From: an uncultured Clostridia bacterium
GTDB taxonomy: Bacteria; Bacillota; Clostridia; RGIG6154
DNA length: 32,003 nucleotides
Assembly: GCA_944388555.1 (NCBI GenBank)
Contig: CALXJH010000128.1
Coordinates: 1-32,003, forward strand
Direction of reading: 5' to 3'
Translations under genes and position numbers: made by a program
Notes under the pieces: model-generated
What the model saw: only the letters and a program-made list of their open reading frames with translations
Database searches by the model: none
What the model was told of the DNA's origin: nothing
In this document: piece after piece, positions 12,166 through 32,003 of the stretch
Layout: each line of letters starts with the position of its first letter
How positions within the stretch are numbered: the stretch's first letter is position 1

Positions 12166-12241
12166 GGCACGCCCGGAGGGATTCGAACCCCCGACCTTTT
12201 GGTTCGTAGCCAAACACTCTATCCAGCTGAGCTACGGGCGC
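12165..12241 (-). tRNA. tRNA-Arg, anticodon ACG
   Basis: Read on the minus strand: acceptor GCGCCCG pairs with CGGGCGT, with one G-U at the end pair. The D arm is GCTCAGCTGGATAGAGT. The anticodon arm is TTTGG-CTACGAA-CCAAA with anticodon ACG. The T arm contains GGTTCGAATCC, and CCA is encoded in the gene (12165-12167 on +). ACG is read as ICG after A34 deamination and decodes CGN arginine codons. Confidence 0.97.
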
Positions 12242-23342: not shown

Positions 23343-26300
23343 TTATAAATCCAAAAAGCGTTTGAGCAAAACGGTCGCTTCTGCACGTGTTGCTGTATTT
23401 TTTGGTGCAAGCGTTGTGTCACTCTTGCCTTTCAGCATTCCCATTTTTACCATTTTTTCCATCGCGCTTTTTGCAAAATCAGATATATCGTTATAATCTG
23501 AAAAAGCTGCCGGATTTATCGTTTCATCTACTTTTGCAGAAATATCTATCTGTTTATATGCAATGGCATTATCTAATAACAAAGCAATTTCTTCTCTGGT
23601 TATTGGCTGATTCGGTAAAAATCCGCTTTCTGTCGGCAAAGAGTCTAATAAACCTGCTTTATATCCGCCTGCAACATACCCATAAAACCAATCTGCTGGT
23701 TTAACATCCCCATAAACATCTTCATTCTGATTGGCAATATTTAAAATTCTGTTTAGTATAGTTAAAAATTCTGCGCGTGTTATCGTATCTTCCGGCGCAA
23801 ATATGCCAACATCTTTTCCTTGCACATGTCCTTGCTGTGCCATATATGTAACATCTTCTTTTGCCCAGTGTCCTTCCAAATCAGTAAATACTTTCACATC
23901 CTGTGCAATTTCAATTTCTTCTTTTCTCAGAGCGCCGTCCGACATTCCGCCTTCAACCGGCGTAACAAGCTGTATTTGATCCCCCTGCACGAATTTTACA
24001 GTGGAAGCTCTTGTTGTAATAGTCTGTAAAGGTACATCTTTTAAAATCAGTTTTACATATTCATCTCCCGTTGCTGCAAAATCGTAGCTGCCAGCATCAA
24101 TCCAGATGCCTTCCGTACAATCTTTTTGATTCACAACAAATGTATCGGTTTTGCCATTGTGTACAATTTCATATACTACACTTTCATTCTGATTCACATT
24201 CCAGTATGGACAGTAAATATAAACCTGTACATCTCCGGATGCTTCAAGCAACATATCATATTTTACAAATGCGCGATCATCCTGTCCGGAAATCCACATG
24301 GTATTTGAGCCGTCTTCTTCCGGTCCCTTAACCGATCCACTCCAAGCCCAAGCGCCTCTGAACGAAAAACCGTTGATCGGATCTGTGCCCTCATCCTCAA
24401 TCTCTTCGGCTGACTTAGTAGAATAAGATATCCCCTTTAAATTTTCATCCAGGAAACGTATATTTTTAACGCCCAGGAAATTACTGTTGGTTTGTGCTAA
24501 CGCAGTAAGCGGTTCATCTAAAACATAATTATCTACAAACGAAATATTTTCAGCGCCCTGTAGATCTATAAGCACCGTCTGCTTATCCTCAAATGTATTA
24601 TTGCGTATCAACACATTTTTTGTTCCCACTGACAACGCCATACCACCCGCACGTTTTTCTATATTGAAAGATATAACGCCTAATGTATCCGATCTTTTAG
24701 CCCCTTTTTTAAAGGTATTATTCTGTATAATGAGCTGGTCGGAATATAAACCGTTCGGATATTGGGTTTCATTTAATACTTTTATTTCGTTGGATGTCAC
24801 GCCCTCATAAGTATTATTTTCAATCACGCCTCTATGTGAGCGGGAAACATTTCCATACCGGCGTACATTCTTAAATGTATTATTCCGAATCACAAAATCT
24901 CCCGAAGACATAGAACGATTCCATATCTGCAAGCTATCTAAAATTTTATCTCCTAAATTGGTAAGTTCCGGCAGTTCCTCTTGTACCGTTACCTTATAAT
25001 AAGGCTCTGCTTTTACAGCCGTAGCTACTGTACATTCTTGTATAATTTCACCGGTTGACGGCTCAAACAAAACAAAAGTATCTCCAGGATTCAAAGTGAA
25101 ATAAGCCGGCGTATCTGCGGCAACCAAAATTGTTTTGGTATCTATCTGATCCATAACCGTCATTGGTCTTGTAAACAGAGCAACTGCGTCATCGCCAATA
25201 CCATTTACGGAACAATTCTCAATCCACGGACCAATTTTATTTGCTCTTAAATGGAATCCATCCCCGCCGCCGGCAAACCAATAACCATCCTGAATCTTGG
25301 CATTAAAATCTAAATATACGATCTGACTGCAGTCATTGGCGATATTATGCAATCCGCCATGTACATAACTGTCAAAGTTATAGATGGTTATGTGTTCTGA
25401 AAATTTAAATTCGGTTAGTGTGGGGCTGTTATCTCTGCATAAGTGTATAAATCGATCTCCAACACTAAAATCAGCTGTATGCGCTTTTGATTTTAGCTCT
25501 AAATAATAAATATCCCCTTCTTTTCTATAATTGCCAGTAAAGAAATATGTACCTATCGTTTCAGGTTTCGTTTTTCCATTTTCTTCCGGATCTAATATAA
25601 TGCCCCAGGATGCTAAGAAATATTTGCCCAACGGACCGTCATATGTTGGAAAACCTTCCTCTACCTTTACGCCGACCTCACCTGTATCCGGCTTAACATC
25701 TGCAACTCTTGACTGTATAAACGGAATTTCATCCACGTGTTCTGTGGTTAGATTCATCAAGGACATATTCTTTGCATAATCTGCTACAAATACTCTTGTT
25801 TTCAGTTTATGCAAATATAATGTTGAATCGTTGCAGTTTATATCAATATTTGCGTACCCTTCGTTTGCAAAGTTGAATATCGGTCCTTCTTTGTAAAAAT
25901 GATACTCACCTTGCTCAAGGTTAATTAAAACTCTCTTTCCCTGTTTAGAAAGCTGTTTTGCCTGCGCGACAGCTTCATCTACAATCTGGCTGTAATCTGT
26001 GCCGGCATTATCCGGTTTTACTGTAATGATTTCATCATAGCCGGCAACGGTAAAGGGTACCACGCTGTACGCACCTGCCGCGCCGGAATCCATCTTCGCC
26101 CGTACTCTGAAATAATACTGTCCCGGTTCTAACGGAAAATCAGCAACATAGCGATTTAACGCAGTCACATCCTCATCAATGATCTGATTAAATTCTTGAT
26201 CCTTTGCAATTGCCACATCATAAGATACCGGTTTTTCTAATACTTCAAAAGCTTCTGTGGGTTCTTGCCATAAAAAGCTCGGAAAAGAATTTACTTCTTC

Positions 26301-26969
26301 ATTCTCAGAAGGTGCTATAATATATGGTGCTTCTGTAAAACTTTTTTCGTCCGGCAGAGGGCCGTAATCGGTAAAATATGGATCATCTAACGCGGTTTCA
26401 GTTCCCGCTGTCGGTATTGTTTGCTCTGGCTTGGAAGGTGCAGCGGTGGATGCGCCTTCCAATGCATCTGTTACTGCCTTGTCTGTTTTAATTAACTTGA
26501 TACCGCCGGCTCTTAAATTTCCTAACGGTGAAGATTTTTCATATAGATTGGTAACAAACCCTTCGGTGCCTTTATTAAACTTAAATACACCTAAATAATT
26601 CCAGTCACTCATCTGATTGAAATTATAAGTGCCGCTTAACGTGCCATCCGCGGTCTGAACGGTTACAAGACATTCTTCCACATTTCTGGCATCCGGTTTA
26701 TTCGGATTCGGAACTACATACAGATAAAGTTCATAGTTCCCGGTTTCCGGAATCTCCGGTGTGTAGCGGATTTCCGAAGGAAGCGCACTTGAAAATCTTC
26801 CTTTTTGTTCTGCTGCCGCTTTTAAACCGGAATCTTTAAACTCTCCCTGTACTTCTTTGTAGCCGGGACTGTTGGTTGAAACAATGATTTCTTCTGCTCC
26901 CAATACATGCATAGGCAGTAAAGAAAAAATCAACATTCCTACCAACAAATAGGCCAGACATCTTTTCAT
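23343..26969 (-). CDS. Large SLH-anchored right-handed beta-helix protein, probable polysaccharide-active surface protein
   Basis: A 1208-residue secreted protein. It has a signal peptide (MKRCLAYLLVGMLIFSLLPM, cleavage near VLGA), then a beta-sandwich module resembling golvesin/CBM domains (about 25-165), a Pro/Thr linker, a fibronectin-type module (about 215-315), a long parallel beta-helix (about 320-890) with repeated N-N-T-F/Y turns (VIRNNTFKNV, VIENNTYEG, IIQNNTFKKG, LIRNNTFEDK), a second beta-sandwich (about 900-1015), and three SLH repeats from about 1027 to the end (FTDLEGHWAKEDV, VKPADWFYGYVAGG, ISDFAKSAMEKMVKMG). GGGDGFHLRANKIGPWIENC followed by GIGDDAVAL carries clustered Asp as in beta-helix glycosidases (GH28/GH110-like) and is the likely active region. 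Family assignment to a CAZy class is not possible by eye. Confidence 0.87.
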   Translation of the reverse strand: MKRCLAYLLVGMLIFSLLPMHVLGAEEIIVSTNSPGYKEVQGEFKDSGLKAAAEQKGRFSSALPSEIRYTPEIPETGNYELYLYVVPNPNKPDARNVEECLVTVQTADGTLSGTYNFNQMSDWNYLGVFKFNKGTEGFVTNLYEKSSPLGNLRAGGIKLIKTDKAVTDALEGASTAAPSKPEQTIPTAGTETALDDPYFTDYGPLPDEKSFTEAPYIIAPSENEEVNSFPSFLWQEPTEAFEVLEKPVSYDVAIAKDQEFNQIIDEDVTALNRYVADFPLEPGQYYFRVRAKMDSGAAGAYSVVPFTVAGYDEIITVKPDNAGTDYSQIVDEAVAQAKQLSKQGKRVLINLEQGEYHFYKEGPIFNFANEGYANIDINCNDSTLYLHKLKTRVFVADYAKNMSLMNLTTEHVDEIPFIQSRVADVKPDTGEVGVKVEEGFPTYDGPLGKYFLASWGIILDPEENGKTKPETIGTYFFTGNYRKEGDIYYLELKSKAHTADFSVGDRFIHLCRDNSPTLTEFKFSEHITIYNFDSYVHGGLHNIANDCSQIVYLDFNAKIQDGYWFAGGGDGFHLRANKIGPWIENCSVNGIGDDAVALFTRPMTVMDQIDTKTILVAADTPAYFTLNPGDTFVLFEPSTGEIIQECTVATAVKAEPYYKVTVQEELPELTNLGDKILDSLQIWNRSMSSGDFVIRNNTFKNVRRYGNVSRSHRGVIENNTYEGVTSNEIKVLNETQYPNGLYSDQLIIQNNTFKKGAKRSDTLGVISFNIEKRAGGMALSVGTKNVLIRNNTFEDKQTVLIDLQGAENISFVDNYVLDEPLTALAQTNSNFLGVKNIRFLDENLKGISYSTKSAEEIEDEGTDPINGFSFRGAWAWSGSVKGPEEDGSNTMWISGQDDRAFVKYDMLLEASGDVQVYIYCPYWNVNQNESVVYEIVHNGKTDTFVVNQKDCTEGIWIDAGSYDFAATGDEYVKLILKDVPLQTITTRASTVKFVQGDQIQLVTPVEGGMSDGALRKEEIEIAQDVKVFTDLEGHWAKEDVTYMAQQGHVQGKDVGIFAPEDTITRAEFLTILNRILNIANQNEDVYGDVKPADWFYGYVAGGYKAGLLDSLPTESGFLPNQPITREEIALLLDNAIAYKQIDISAKVDETINPAAFSDYNDISDFAKSAMEKMVKMGMLKGKSDTTLAPKNTATRAEATVLLKRFLDL

Positions 26970-29690: not shown

Positions 29691-29719
29691 ATTATATCTA
29701 TTTTTTGTTAAAAATGCAA
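29691..29719 (-). promoter_or_regulatory. Sigma-A promoter of the GH99/WbsX-like gene
   Basis: On the minus strand: -35 TTGCAT (29719-29714), a 17-nt spacer, -10 TATAAT (29696-29691). It begins directly behind the terminator of the upstream RNA candidate. Confidence 0.8.
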
Positions 29720-29725
29720 TCTTTT

Positions 29726-29757
29726 AAAAAAAAAAAACGACCACTTTCGTGGCCGCC
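29726..29757 (-). terminator. Strong minus-strand terminator of the structured RNA candidate
   Basis: On the minus strand CGGCCAC-GAAA-GTGGTCG (29755-29738) has a GNRA loop and one G-U pair, then twelve U (29737-29726). The matching position on the plus strand is an A/C mismatch, so the minus strand is the functional one. No protein gene on the minus strand lies upstream that needs it. Confidence 0.87.
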
Positions 29758-29906
29758 AAAAAGGGAGTGTTTGAAATGAAAAACTATACAGTTCCTCTGC
29801 AGAAATGTATAAGACGTAAGGCTACCCGGGGGATTCGCTCTTTTAGCAAAGAACGGAATAAGGATTTGAGGAGTTTTCGGATAGCCTTGCCTTATTACCT
29901 TCTACA
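29726..29906 (-). ncRNA. Structured non-coding RNA candidate (6S-like architecture), about 180 nt
   Basis: A perfect minus-strand -10 TATAAT (29918-29913) predicts a start near 29906. From that base the RNA folds on itself: 29906-29879 pairs with 29825-29795 in about 27-28 pairs with small bulges. Inside is an asymmetric bubble (about 23 nt on the 5' side, 8 nt on the 3' side) and an 8-bp hairpin CGTTCTTT-GCTA-AAAGAGCG (29854-29835). A 40-nt tail and the terminator follow. Several pairs are G-U on this strand and would be A/C mismatches on the other, so the RNA is on the minus strand. Rod with central bubble and length fit 6S RNA, but I cannot confirm that family. No clear -35 box. Confidence 0.6.
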
Positions 29907-29912
29907 CTTATT

Positions 29913-29918
29913 ATTATA
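29913..29918 (-). promoter_or_regulatory. -10 box of the structured RNA candidate
   Basis: TATAAT on the minus strand, 7 nt before the first base of the long RNA stem. The sequence 17 nt further upstream (CATAGG) is a poor -35, so strength is uncertain. Confidence 0.5.
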
Positions 29919-30030
29919 CATATTGTTATGGAAAACCTATGATAAGAATGTGAAATTTTTTTGAAAACTCCCCCTCCCCCTCATTTCCTCTATTACCAGA
30001 AATTGTGGCTTGATTTTTGATGACTTATCC

Positions 30031-30188: not shown

Positions 30189-32003
30189 ATGTCAAAATTC
30201 AAAAGAATTATATCCCTCGCTGTTGGTACAGTGATGGCATTGGGAATCGCAAGCCCGGCAGCCGCATTTAATATTGCTGATGACGTTGCAGGCACAAAAT
30301 ATGCAGAAGCTGCGACTGTGCTAGGTGCATTGGGCATCATGGTTGGTGATGACAACGGAGCATTTCGTCCTGATGACAATATAAGCCGCGCTGAATTTGC
30401 GAAAATTGCAGTTCATGCACTGGGTATTGAAAATATTGCTTCTTCAAACCAGGGTGTTTCGGTTTTCCCGGACGTTTCTACAAGCCACTGGGCAAACGGT
30501 TATATCAACGTTGCTTCTTCTCAGGGGTTGATCGTTGGTGATGATACGGGTACTTTCAGACCTGAAGACAATATTTCTTACCAAGAAGCTGCAACCATTT
30601 TAATCCGTGTATTAGGTCATGAACCTGCGGCAAAATCCAAAGGAGGCTATCCTTCCGGTTATTTGGTACAGGCTGAACAAATCGGTGTTACAAAAGACGT
30701 TAGTTCCACATCTACTGCTGCAGCATCCAGAGGTATGGTTGCACAGATGACTTTTAATTCTCTGACCGTAAACCTGATGGAACAAACCGGTTTTGGCAAT
30801 AACTTAAACTACGAAGTAGTAGACAAAACATTATTAGAAGATAAGTTGGATGTTTTCTACGATACAGGCGTTATCACAGGAAACGTACACACCAAAATCA
30901 ACGGCGCAAGTGCGTTGAAAGATGGTCAGGTTGAAATTGGAAACGGTAACGTTTTTGAAGTTGGAAACTCTGACGCAGACAAGCTTTTAGGCTACAACGT
31001 AAATTACTATTACAAAGAAAACAAAAATGATGATAATGAAATCATTTTGGCACAACCCACAAAAAGAAACAGTGAAGTTAAAATTGATGTAAATAATCTT
31101 GCGGAGGAATTGATAGAGGGAGCAAACAGCATATCTTACTATGCCGATGAAAATGACAGCAGAGCGACCAAAGCAAATCTCGCGGACAAGTATACTGTTA
31201 TTTATAACCAAAAATATCAGGATGCGCTTCAGAATCCTGAAACAGGTAATGTTACACTCTTAGACAATGACGGCGACAGCATCTATGACATCGTATTTAT
31301 CAATGAGCACGTAAATTACGTTATAGATGATATCTCCACATTCGCAATGAAAATTTATGACAAATATGACAACGAACCGTTAAACTTAGACACAACAGCC
31401 AACAAGAATTTAAAAGTTTTCATTCAGGACACAGAAGGAAATGAACTTGCATTCGAAGATTTAAAAGAATGGGACGTTCTGAGTGTTTATAAAAACACAG
31501 ATTATGTAAATATGATTGTTTCCAGAAACAGCGTTCAAGGCGCGATTGAAGAAAGCGGAGACAAAGGCGAAAAAGTAATTGCAGGAAAAGAATATGAAGT
31601 TGCAGGCAACCTGAATGCAAATGATTTGGAACTTGAAATGGAAGGTACCTTCTATTTGGATTTCGAAGGAAAAATCGCAGGTTATGACGCAACTGCAAGA
31701 CAAACATCCAACTACGCATATTTGCTGGATGCTGCTATGACTTCTGGTTTAAACCCTGTTCTTTCTGTAAAATTATTTGATGCAAAAGGCAATGAAGTGA
31801 TTTATAACGCACCTGATAAACTCCGTTTCAACGGAACATCCGGCGTACAATCTGCTACCGTTTTAGAATCTTTAAAAGATGACGGCACTGTAAAACCGCA
31901 GCTCATCACTTATGAATTAAACTCCGACGGTAAAATTGCAGAAATCGTTACAGCGGAAGATAAAACAGAAAACTTCCCCAGCAGCTTCTTAAAATCCACT
32001 TTT
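30189..32003 (+). CDS. Probable main S-layer protein with N-terminal SLH domains, 3' partial
   Basis: The frame is open for 605 codons to the window end. A Sec signal peptide (MSKFKRIISLAVGTVMALGI, cleavage after SPAAA) precedes three SLH repeats in residues 28-200: ATVLGALGIMVGDDNGAFRP, then SHWANGYINVASSQGLIVGD with TFRPEDNISYQEAA, then a weaker one around VQAEQIGVTKDV. The rest (200 onward) is acidic, Asp/Asn/Lys-rich, with NYEVVDKTLLEDKLDVFYDT and repeated strands, and almost no Cys, as in S-layer crystalline domains. Perfect AAGGAGG 7 nt before ATG and a dedicated promoter with a long leader fit a highly expressed surface-layer gene. Confidence 0.92.
   Translation, partial: MSKFKRIISLAVGTVMALGIASPAAAFNIADDVAGTKYAEAATVLGALGIMVGDDNGAFRPDDNISRAEFAKIAVHALGIENIASSNQGVSVFPDVSTSHWANGYINVASSQGLIVGDDTGTFRPEDNISYQEAATILIRVLGHEPAAKSKGGYPSGYLVQAEQIGVTKDVSSTSTAAASRGMVAQMTFNSLTVNLMEQTGFGNNLNYEVVDKTLLEDKLDVFYDTGVITGNVHTKINGASALKDGQVEIGNGNVFEVGNSDADKLLGYNVNYYYKENKNDDNEIILAQPTKRNSEVKIDVNNLAEELIEGANSISYYADENDSRATKANLADKYTVIYNQKYQDALQNPETGNVTLLDNDGDSIYDIVFINEHVNYVIDDISTFAMKIYDKYDNEPLNLDTTANKNLKVFIQDTEGNELAFEDLKEWDVLSVYKNTDYVNMIVSRNSVQGAIEESGDKGEKVIAGKEYEVAGNLNANDLELEMEGTFYLDFEGKIAGYDATARQTSNYAYLLDAAMTSGLNPVLSVKLFDAKGNEVIYNAPDKLRFNGTSGVQSATVLESLKDDGTVKPQLITYELNSDGKIAEIVTAEDKTENFPSSFLKSTF

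Follow-up and report, generated by a model that had tools for sequence, protein, structure and literature searches.

The window analysed here, a 32,003-nt stretch of a contig from an uncultured Clostridia bacterium, carries between a WbsX/GH99-like gene and an S-layer gene a segment that folds on its minus strand into a long rod with a central bubble. What does this segment encode and, if an RNA, on what would that RNA act? The initial annotation described an independent structured RNA and hesitated between a divergent 6S RNA and a new small RNA (sRNA). The structure and strand of the RNA, its homologues, its conserved linker, its promoter boxes and its independence from neighbouring genes are established here at the level of sequence; its transcription, the identity of its regulator, the inducing signal and repression itself we infer.

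A structured RNA on the minus strand

The predicted sRNA occupies positions 29908-29726 of the minus strand, a transcript of ~183 nt delimited from sequence and folds and supported by a shuffle test and homologues. Its predicted start, ~29908-29906, lies downstream of a -10 box, TATAAT (29913-29918, minus strand), that aligns in the homologous loci of G001 and G003; a good -35 hexamer is absent 17 bases upstream of this box. In the MFE fold, the 5' arm (29878-29906) and the 3' arm (29798-29828) form a rod of 28 pairs, in line with the ~27-28 estimated initially. The 5' side of the bubble carries a conserved C-rich 12-mer, ACUCCUCAAAUC (29863-29874), identical in G001 and unpaired in both folds, and the rod is closed by an apical 8-bp hairpin (29834-29853) that is kept in G001 with a different sequence. 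Below the rod, a linker, GUUUUUCAUUUCAAACACUCCCUUUUU (29758-29784), leads to a terminator hairpin with a GAAA loop (29738-29757), matched by a terminator at the corresponding position in G001 and G003, and to a U12 tract (29726-29737). The rod, bubble, 8-bp tip, GNRA-capped terminator, U12 tract and dedicated -10 box that had been read from the letters were thus all recovered on the minus strand. A folding energy of -59 kcal/mol was obtained for the full segment (z = -4.4), a value that none of 200 shuffles equalled. In the same kind of shuffle test, the rod alone gave z = -5.6 for the minus strand versus -1.8 for the plus strand; the corresponding values for the G001 homologue were -4.6 and -2.2.

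A BLAST search of the locus against 99 related genomes, in which G000 is the window's own genome, revealed a homologue matching at both ends in the congeneric G001 (C24:11377-11557, minus strand) and a short match in G003, a member of the same family (C7:150371). None was found in G002, G004 or G005, of which G002 and G004 are incomplete genomes; three sequences of this RNA are known. The window RNA and its G001 homologue adopt the same architecture when each is folded on its own. As MFE folds pick paired bases by construction, the real evidence lies in the common register of the sequence-divergent arms: all 24 shared rod pairs are kept between the two, six of them changed on both sides (compensatory) and six on one side. 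Random placement of the 3' changes kept a mean of 12.7 pairs and never kept all of them in 200,000 trials. On the plus strand, standard pairs number only 20 of 24 in the window and 19 of 24 in G001 because of G-U pairs, in agreement with the earlier remark that several wobble pairs work only on the minus strand. The G003 copy has a short hairpin where the other two have the long rod, and no ACUCCUC bubble. The covariation anticipated in homologues is thus present and, together with a promoter and terminator conserved on the minus strand and an overlapping plus-strand frame that is not conserved, bears out the reading as an independent structured RNA; we are highly confident that the locus encodes a standalone minus-strand sRNA.

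The conserved linker and its predicted targets

Across the three copies, conservation peaks not in the rod but in the 27-nt linker (29784-29758). Window and G001 are identical over all 27 nt, the G003 linker is split by one inserted U, and the form common to all three genomes is GUUUUUCAUUUCA(U)AACACUCCCUUUU. Of 391 genomes searched across the class, only three (G000, G001 and G003) contain the pattern TTTCA-N(0-2)-AACACTCCCTTTT, and all three belong to the family of the window. The linker is antisense to a Shine-Dalgarno (SD) sequence, a spacer and AUG-AAA-AAC, the three-genome form covering a ribosome-binding site and AUG-AAA-AA. The RNA thus shares with trans-acting, SD-blocking C-rich sRNAs a conserved C-rich segment that is left unpaired in the fold and is complementary to SD regions, and the linker is its presumed target-pairing region.

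Pairing was scanned in genome samples of 758, 793 and 224 kb, with gene starts called by an SD-based heuristic on part of each genome and signal-peptide-like N-termini called by a simple hydropathy rule. In G001 (606 genes, 758 kb), the linker forms duplexes of -20 kcal/mol or better with 20 ribosome-binding regions. Shuffled motifs averaged 4.2 such sites (maximum 16) and shuffles keeping ACUCCCU averaged 5.1 (maximum 19), with none of 50 reaching 20 in either set; the interiors of the same genes contained no site at -20 kcal/mol. Among the top 44 G001 genes, 34% have signal-peptide-like N-termini, versus 18% of all sampled genes and 19 +/- 6% when the shuffles keep the core. The best G001 duplexes involve a gene for a two-domain, cysteine-rich DUF1540 protein (G001:C15:17733-17757; -28.6 kcal/mol) and a lipoprotein gene (-26.4 kcal/mol). 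In G003, 33 genes pass -18 kcal/mol versus 9.8-13.6 for shuffles (0 of 30 as high), a modest excess that fades at stricter cut-offs, and the 180 genes sampled in G000 show no significant excess. An excess of linker pairing with ribosome-binding sites is thus statistically supported in G001 only.

Several individual candidates were set aside. DUF1540 was rejected as a conserved target, since the gene is present in all six genomes while full extended pairing occurs only in G001, and the linker has a less complete match at its G000 ribosome-binding site. The neighbouring S-layer gene forms a weak duplex (-6.7 kcal/mol). An antisense search allowing up to three mismatches over 21 nt returned the RNA's own locus alone and hence, by that measure, no individual target in trans with near-perfect pairing. 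The bubble motif, considered as a second pairing site, gave no clear target enrichment.

We tentatively suggest, as a rather doubtful refinement, that the linker is tuned to a class of mRNAs, those in which SD, AUG and lysine codons form the gene start typical of signal-peptide and lipoprotein genes; if so, a single stress-induced sRNA would simultaneously reduce the entry of many proteins into the secretion pathway. A competing reading holds that the C-rich segments mainly bind a protein or another RNA, as a sponge, rather than block ribosome sites. The C-rich bubble and linker could indeed bind protein, and the weaker DUF1540 pairing in G000 fits this reading; however, the linker follows SD-spacer-AUG spacing along its whole length, beyond the CUCCC core, and G001 pairing exceeds that of core-kept shuffles, which makes a sponge unlikely. 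Occlusion of ribosome-binding sites remains the preferred function of the linker.

Independence from neighbouring genes

A gene on the same strand begins ~85-115 bases past the sRNA terminator in each of the three genomes, an arrangement expected if the RNA were the 5' leader or attenuator of that gene, its terminator opened by ligand or antisense pairing. The downstream genes are, however, unrelated: a WbsX/GH99-like gene in the window (PF14307, 29615-28500), eda in G001 and thrC in G003, the latter two presumably encoding KDPG aldolase and threonine synthase, as named from reading their translations. A sigma70-like promoter lies between the sRNA terminator and the start codon of each (TTGCAT-N17-TATAAT at 29691-29719, minus strand, for the WbsX/GH99-like gene; TTGACA-N17-TATACT in G001), and no conserved antiterminator was seen, so that a leader is very improbable. 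With its own promoter and intrinsic terminator, the sRNA appears, as far as sequence can tell, to depend on no adjacent gene. Two SLH-domain surface proteins are encoded near the RNA, at 23343-26969 (minus strand) and 30189-32003 (plus strand); the one of 1208 aa also carries beta-helix and golvesin-C domains. Plasmid and phage blastn searches and a viral-contig pattern scan gave no match.

The opposite strand holds a 62-codon open reading frame (29777-29964, plus strand) with a perfect ribosome-binding site (SD GGGAG, 8-nt spacing, ATG-AAA-AAC) and a hydrophobic C-terminal stretch, which could specify a small protein or the toxin of a type I pair with the minus-strand RNA as antitoxin. Its counterparts comprise only 18 codons in G001 and 20 in G003, the shared peptide is limited to MK(N/K), and no Pfam or NCBIfam match was obtained. 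The rod's G-U pairs fail on this strand, and the conserved promoter and terminator lie on the other. A plus-strand protein, the finding that would have contradicted the RNA reading, is accordingly highly unlikely, and we judge the frame a by-product of the antisense motif.

Least probable is a second, divergent 6S RNA or another polymerase-binding rod that sequesters RNA polymerase: some Firmicutes carry two 6S RNAs, and a length of ~180 nt, a long rod and an asymmetric bubble are 6S-like, but the RF00013 model found nothing in 1 kb of sequence at E<=10 and nothing at gathering in the window, a genuine 6S RNA lies elsewhere in the genome (G000:C65:6095-6284, 75.7 bits to RF00013), and conservation is highest in the linker, outside the rod, with G003 retaining this linker but not the rod. 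The 6S proposal of the initial annotation is thereby abandoned and its alternative, a new small RNA, upheld: a search of 4227 Rfam families with the window, its flank and the G001 homologue returned nothing above the gathering score for this RNA. A tRNA gene (12168-12241, minus strand) is the sole Rfam match at the gathering threshold in the window. The sRNA is best read as new, lineage-specific and previously undescribed.

Promoter boxes, proposed mechanism and known systems

Upstream of the -10 box, motif scoring and comparison of homologue promoters revealed four 11-bp-phased, TTTTCACA-like boxes (29927-29967, minus strand), a putative response-regulator site overlapping the -35 position. 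The array reads TTTTCAAA-aaa-ATTTCACA-ttc-TTATCATA-ggt-TTTCCATA, with the last box ending 8 nt before the -10 box, a gap that we take to fit PhoB/OmpR-type activation. Phased direct-repeat boxes upstream of a -10 box, as in a CssR-type or OmpR/PhoB-type regulon, are thus present. The pattern AAATTTCACA-N(26-34)-TATAAT occurs once per genome sample, each time at this sRNA. A slightly looser pattern, applied order-wide, also picks out the gene of an OmpR-type regulator in G004 and that of an LCP glycopolymer transferase in G005 (G005:C32:68916), which has the same box upstream, with some further matches inside or near unrelated genes.

All six genomes encode an orthologue of the regulator, at 71-76% identity. 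Of the five upstream regions compared, those in G001, G002 and G005 show TTTTCACA-like boxes in 11-bp phase that deviate at 2-3 positions over two boxes, and the G004 region has boxes with 5 mismatches; no promoter lies directly in front of the G003 gene. For comparison, the three sRNA promoters (G000, G001 and G003) score 2, 3 and 3 mismatches over two boxes, and a score of 3 or less is reached by 0.9% of 698 AT-rich 100-bp stretches. As the G001, G002 and G005 orthologues were not selected by motif, they provide an independent test of the boxes. Orthologues with boxes lie at G001:C45, G002:C201, G005:C61 and G004:C54, and a sensor-kinase-like gene follows in G004. Boxes at the regulator's own promoters likely mean that an uncharacterised two-component system regulates its own expression. 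When the G001 sample was scanned with three boxes, the sole match was a MacA-like adaptor gene, whose G000 counterpart is preceded by TTTTCACA-CAG-TTTTCACA. Repeats of the form TTTTCACA-N3-TTTTCACA or similar lie upstream of this MacA/HlyD-like gene on G000:C15 and G001:C5, and the gene is likely a member of the same regulon. The regulator itself is a generic OmpR/PhoB-type protein by NCBIfam, falling below every curated cut-off shown, and its link to the boxes is putative, with the shared motif as its sole basis.

These elements suggest a mechanism. A sensor kinase would perceive envelope or secretion stress, and an OmpR/PhoB-type response regulator would then probably activate the sRNA by binding the 11-bp-phased boxes that replace the -35 element. 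The 5' rod would stabilise the RNA and present the C-rich bubble (ACUCCUC), and the terminator would end it independently of the next gene. In several mRNAs, the single-stranded, 27-nt linker would pair from the SD across the spacer and the start codon into the first lysine codons and would thereby block ribosome loading; many of these mRNAs are predicted to start Met-Lys-Lys and to encode secreted proteins or lipoproteins. We consider this composite reading, a trans-acting, LhrC-like, regulator-activated sRNA that blocks ribosome sites, reasonably likely; under envelope stress, such an sRNA would probably reduce the translation of many mRNAs, often those of secreted proteins.

The RNA described here is thus an sRNA whose structure is supported by covariation and whose promoter code and target rule are predicted; it comes from an order of little-studied Clostridia represented here by six genomes and with no such RNA listed in Rfam. 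Among known systems, the ~180-nt 6S RNA (RF00013) differs in that no covariance-model match was obtained and that a conserved antisense linker and a 3' terminator module are present here. RoxS/RsaE and other UCCC-type SD-blocking sRNAs of low-GC bacteria also base-pair with the SD through C-rich regions (PMC5419742), but show no Rfam sequence or structure match to this RNA and have another fold and promoter control. On the promoter side, the boxes resemble those of the CssRS secretion-stress regulon of Bacillus, in which the canonical CssR box, TTTTCACA, lies just upstream of, or overlaps, the -35 region (PMC6749698); the regulator here, in contrast, is assigned by NCBIfam to the OmpR/PhoB type in general.

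The closest likeness is to LhrC1-5 of Listeria monocytogenes, whose unpaired CUCCC...UUUU motifs, including one in the single-stranded stretch before the terminator, pair with the SD of surface-protein mRNAs, blocking the lapB SD, and which are induced under envelope stress via LisRK (PMC4132741). In Listeria an upstream element is read by an envelope-stress two-component system, LisRK, and the boxes here would be read by a predicted regulator of such a system. LhrC is multicopy, however, with CUCCC in two loops and a single-stranded stretch, whereas the present RNA is single-copy, has a long rod and bubble and different promoter boxes, and carries a longer linker that crosses the AUG into the coding region. 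LhrC was not among the Rfam matches at E<=10, and no Rfam match joins the two RNAs. By this analogy, the sRNA is best read as working like LhrC without being a member of its family. If this is right, it would represent an independently arisen counterpart of LisRK-LhrC, in which an envelope-stress regulator drives an RNA that blocks the ribosome sites of exported proteins.
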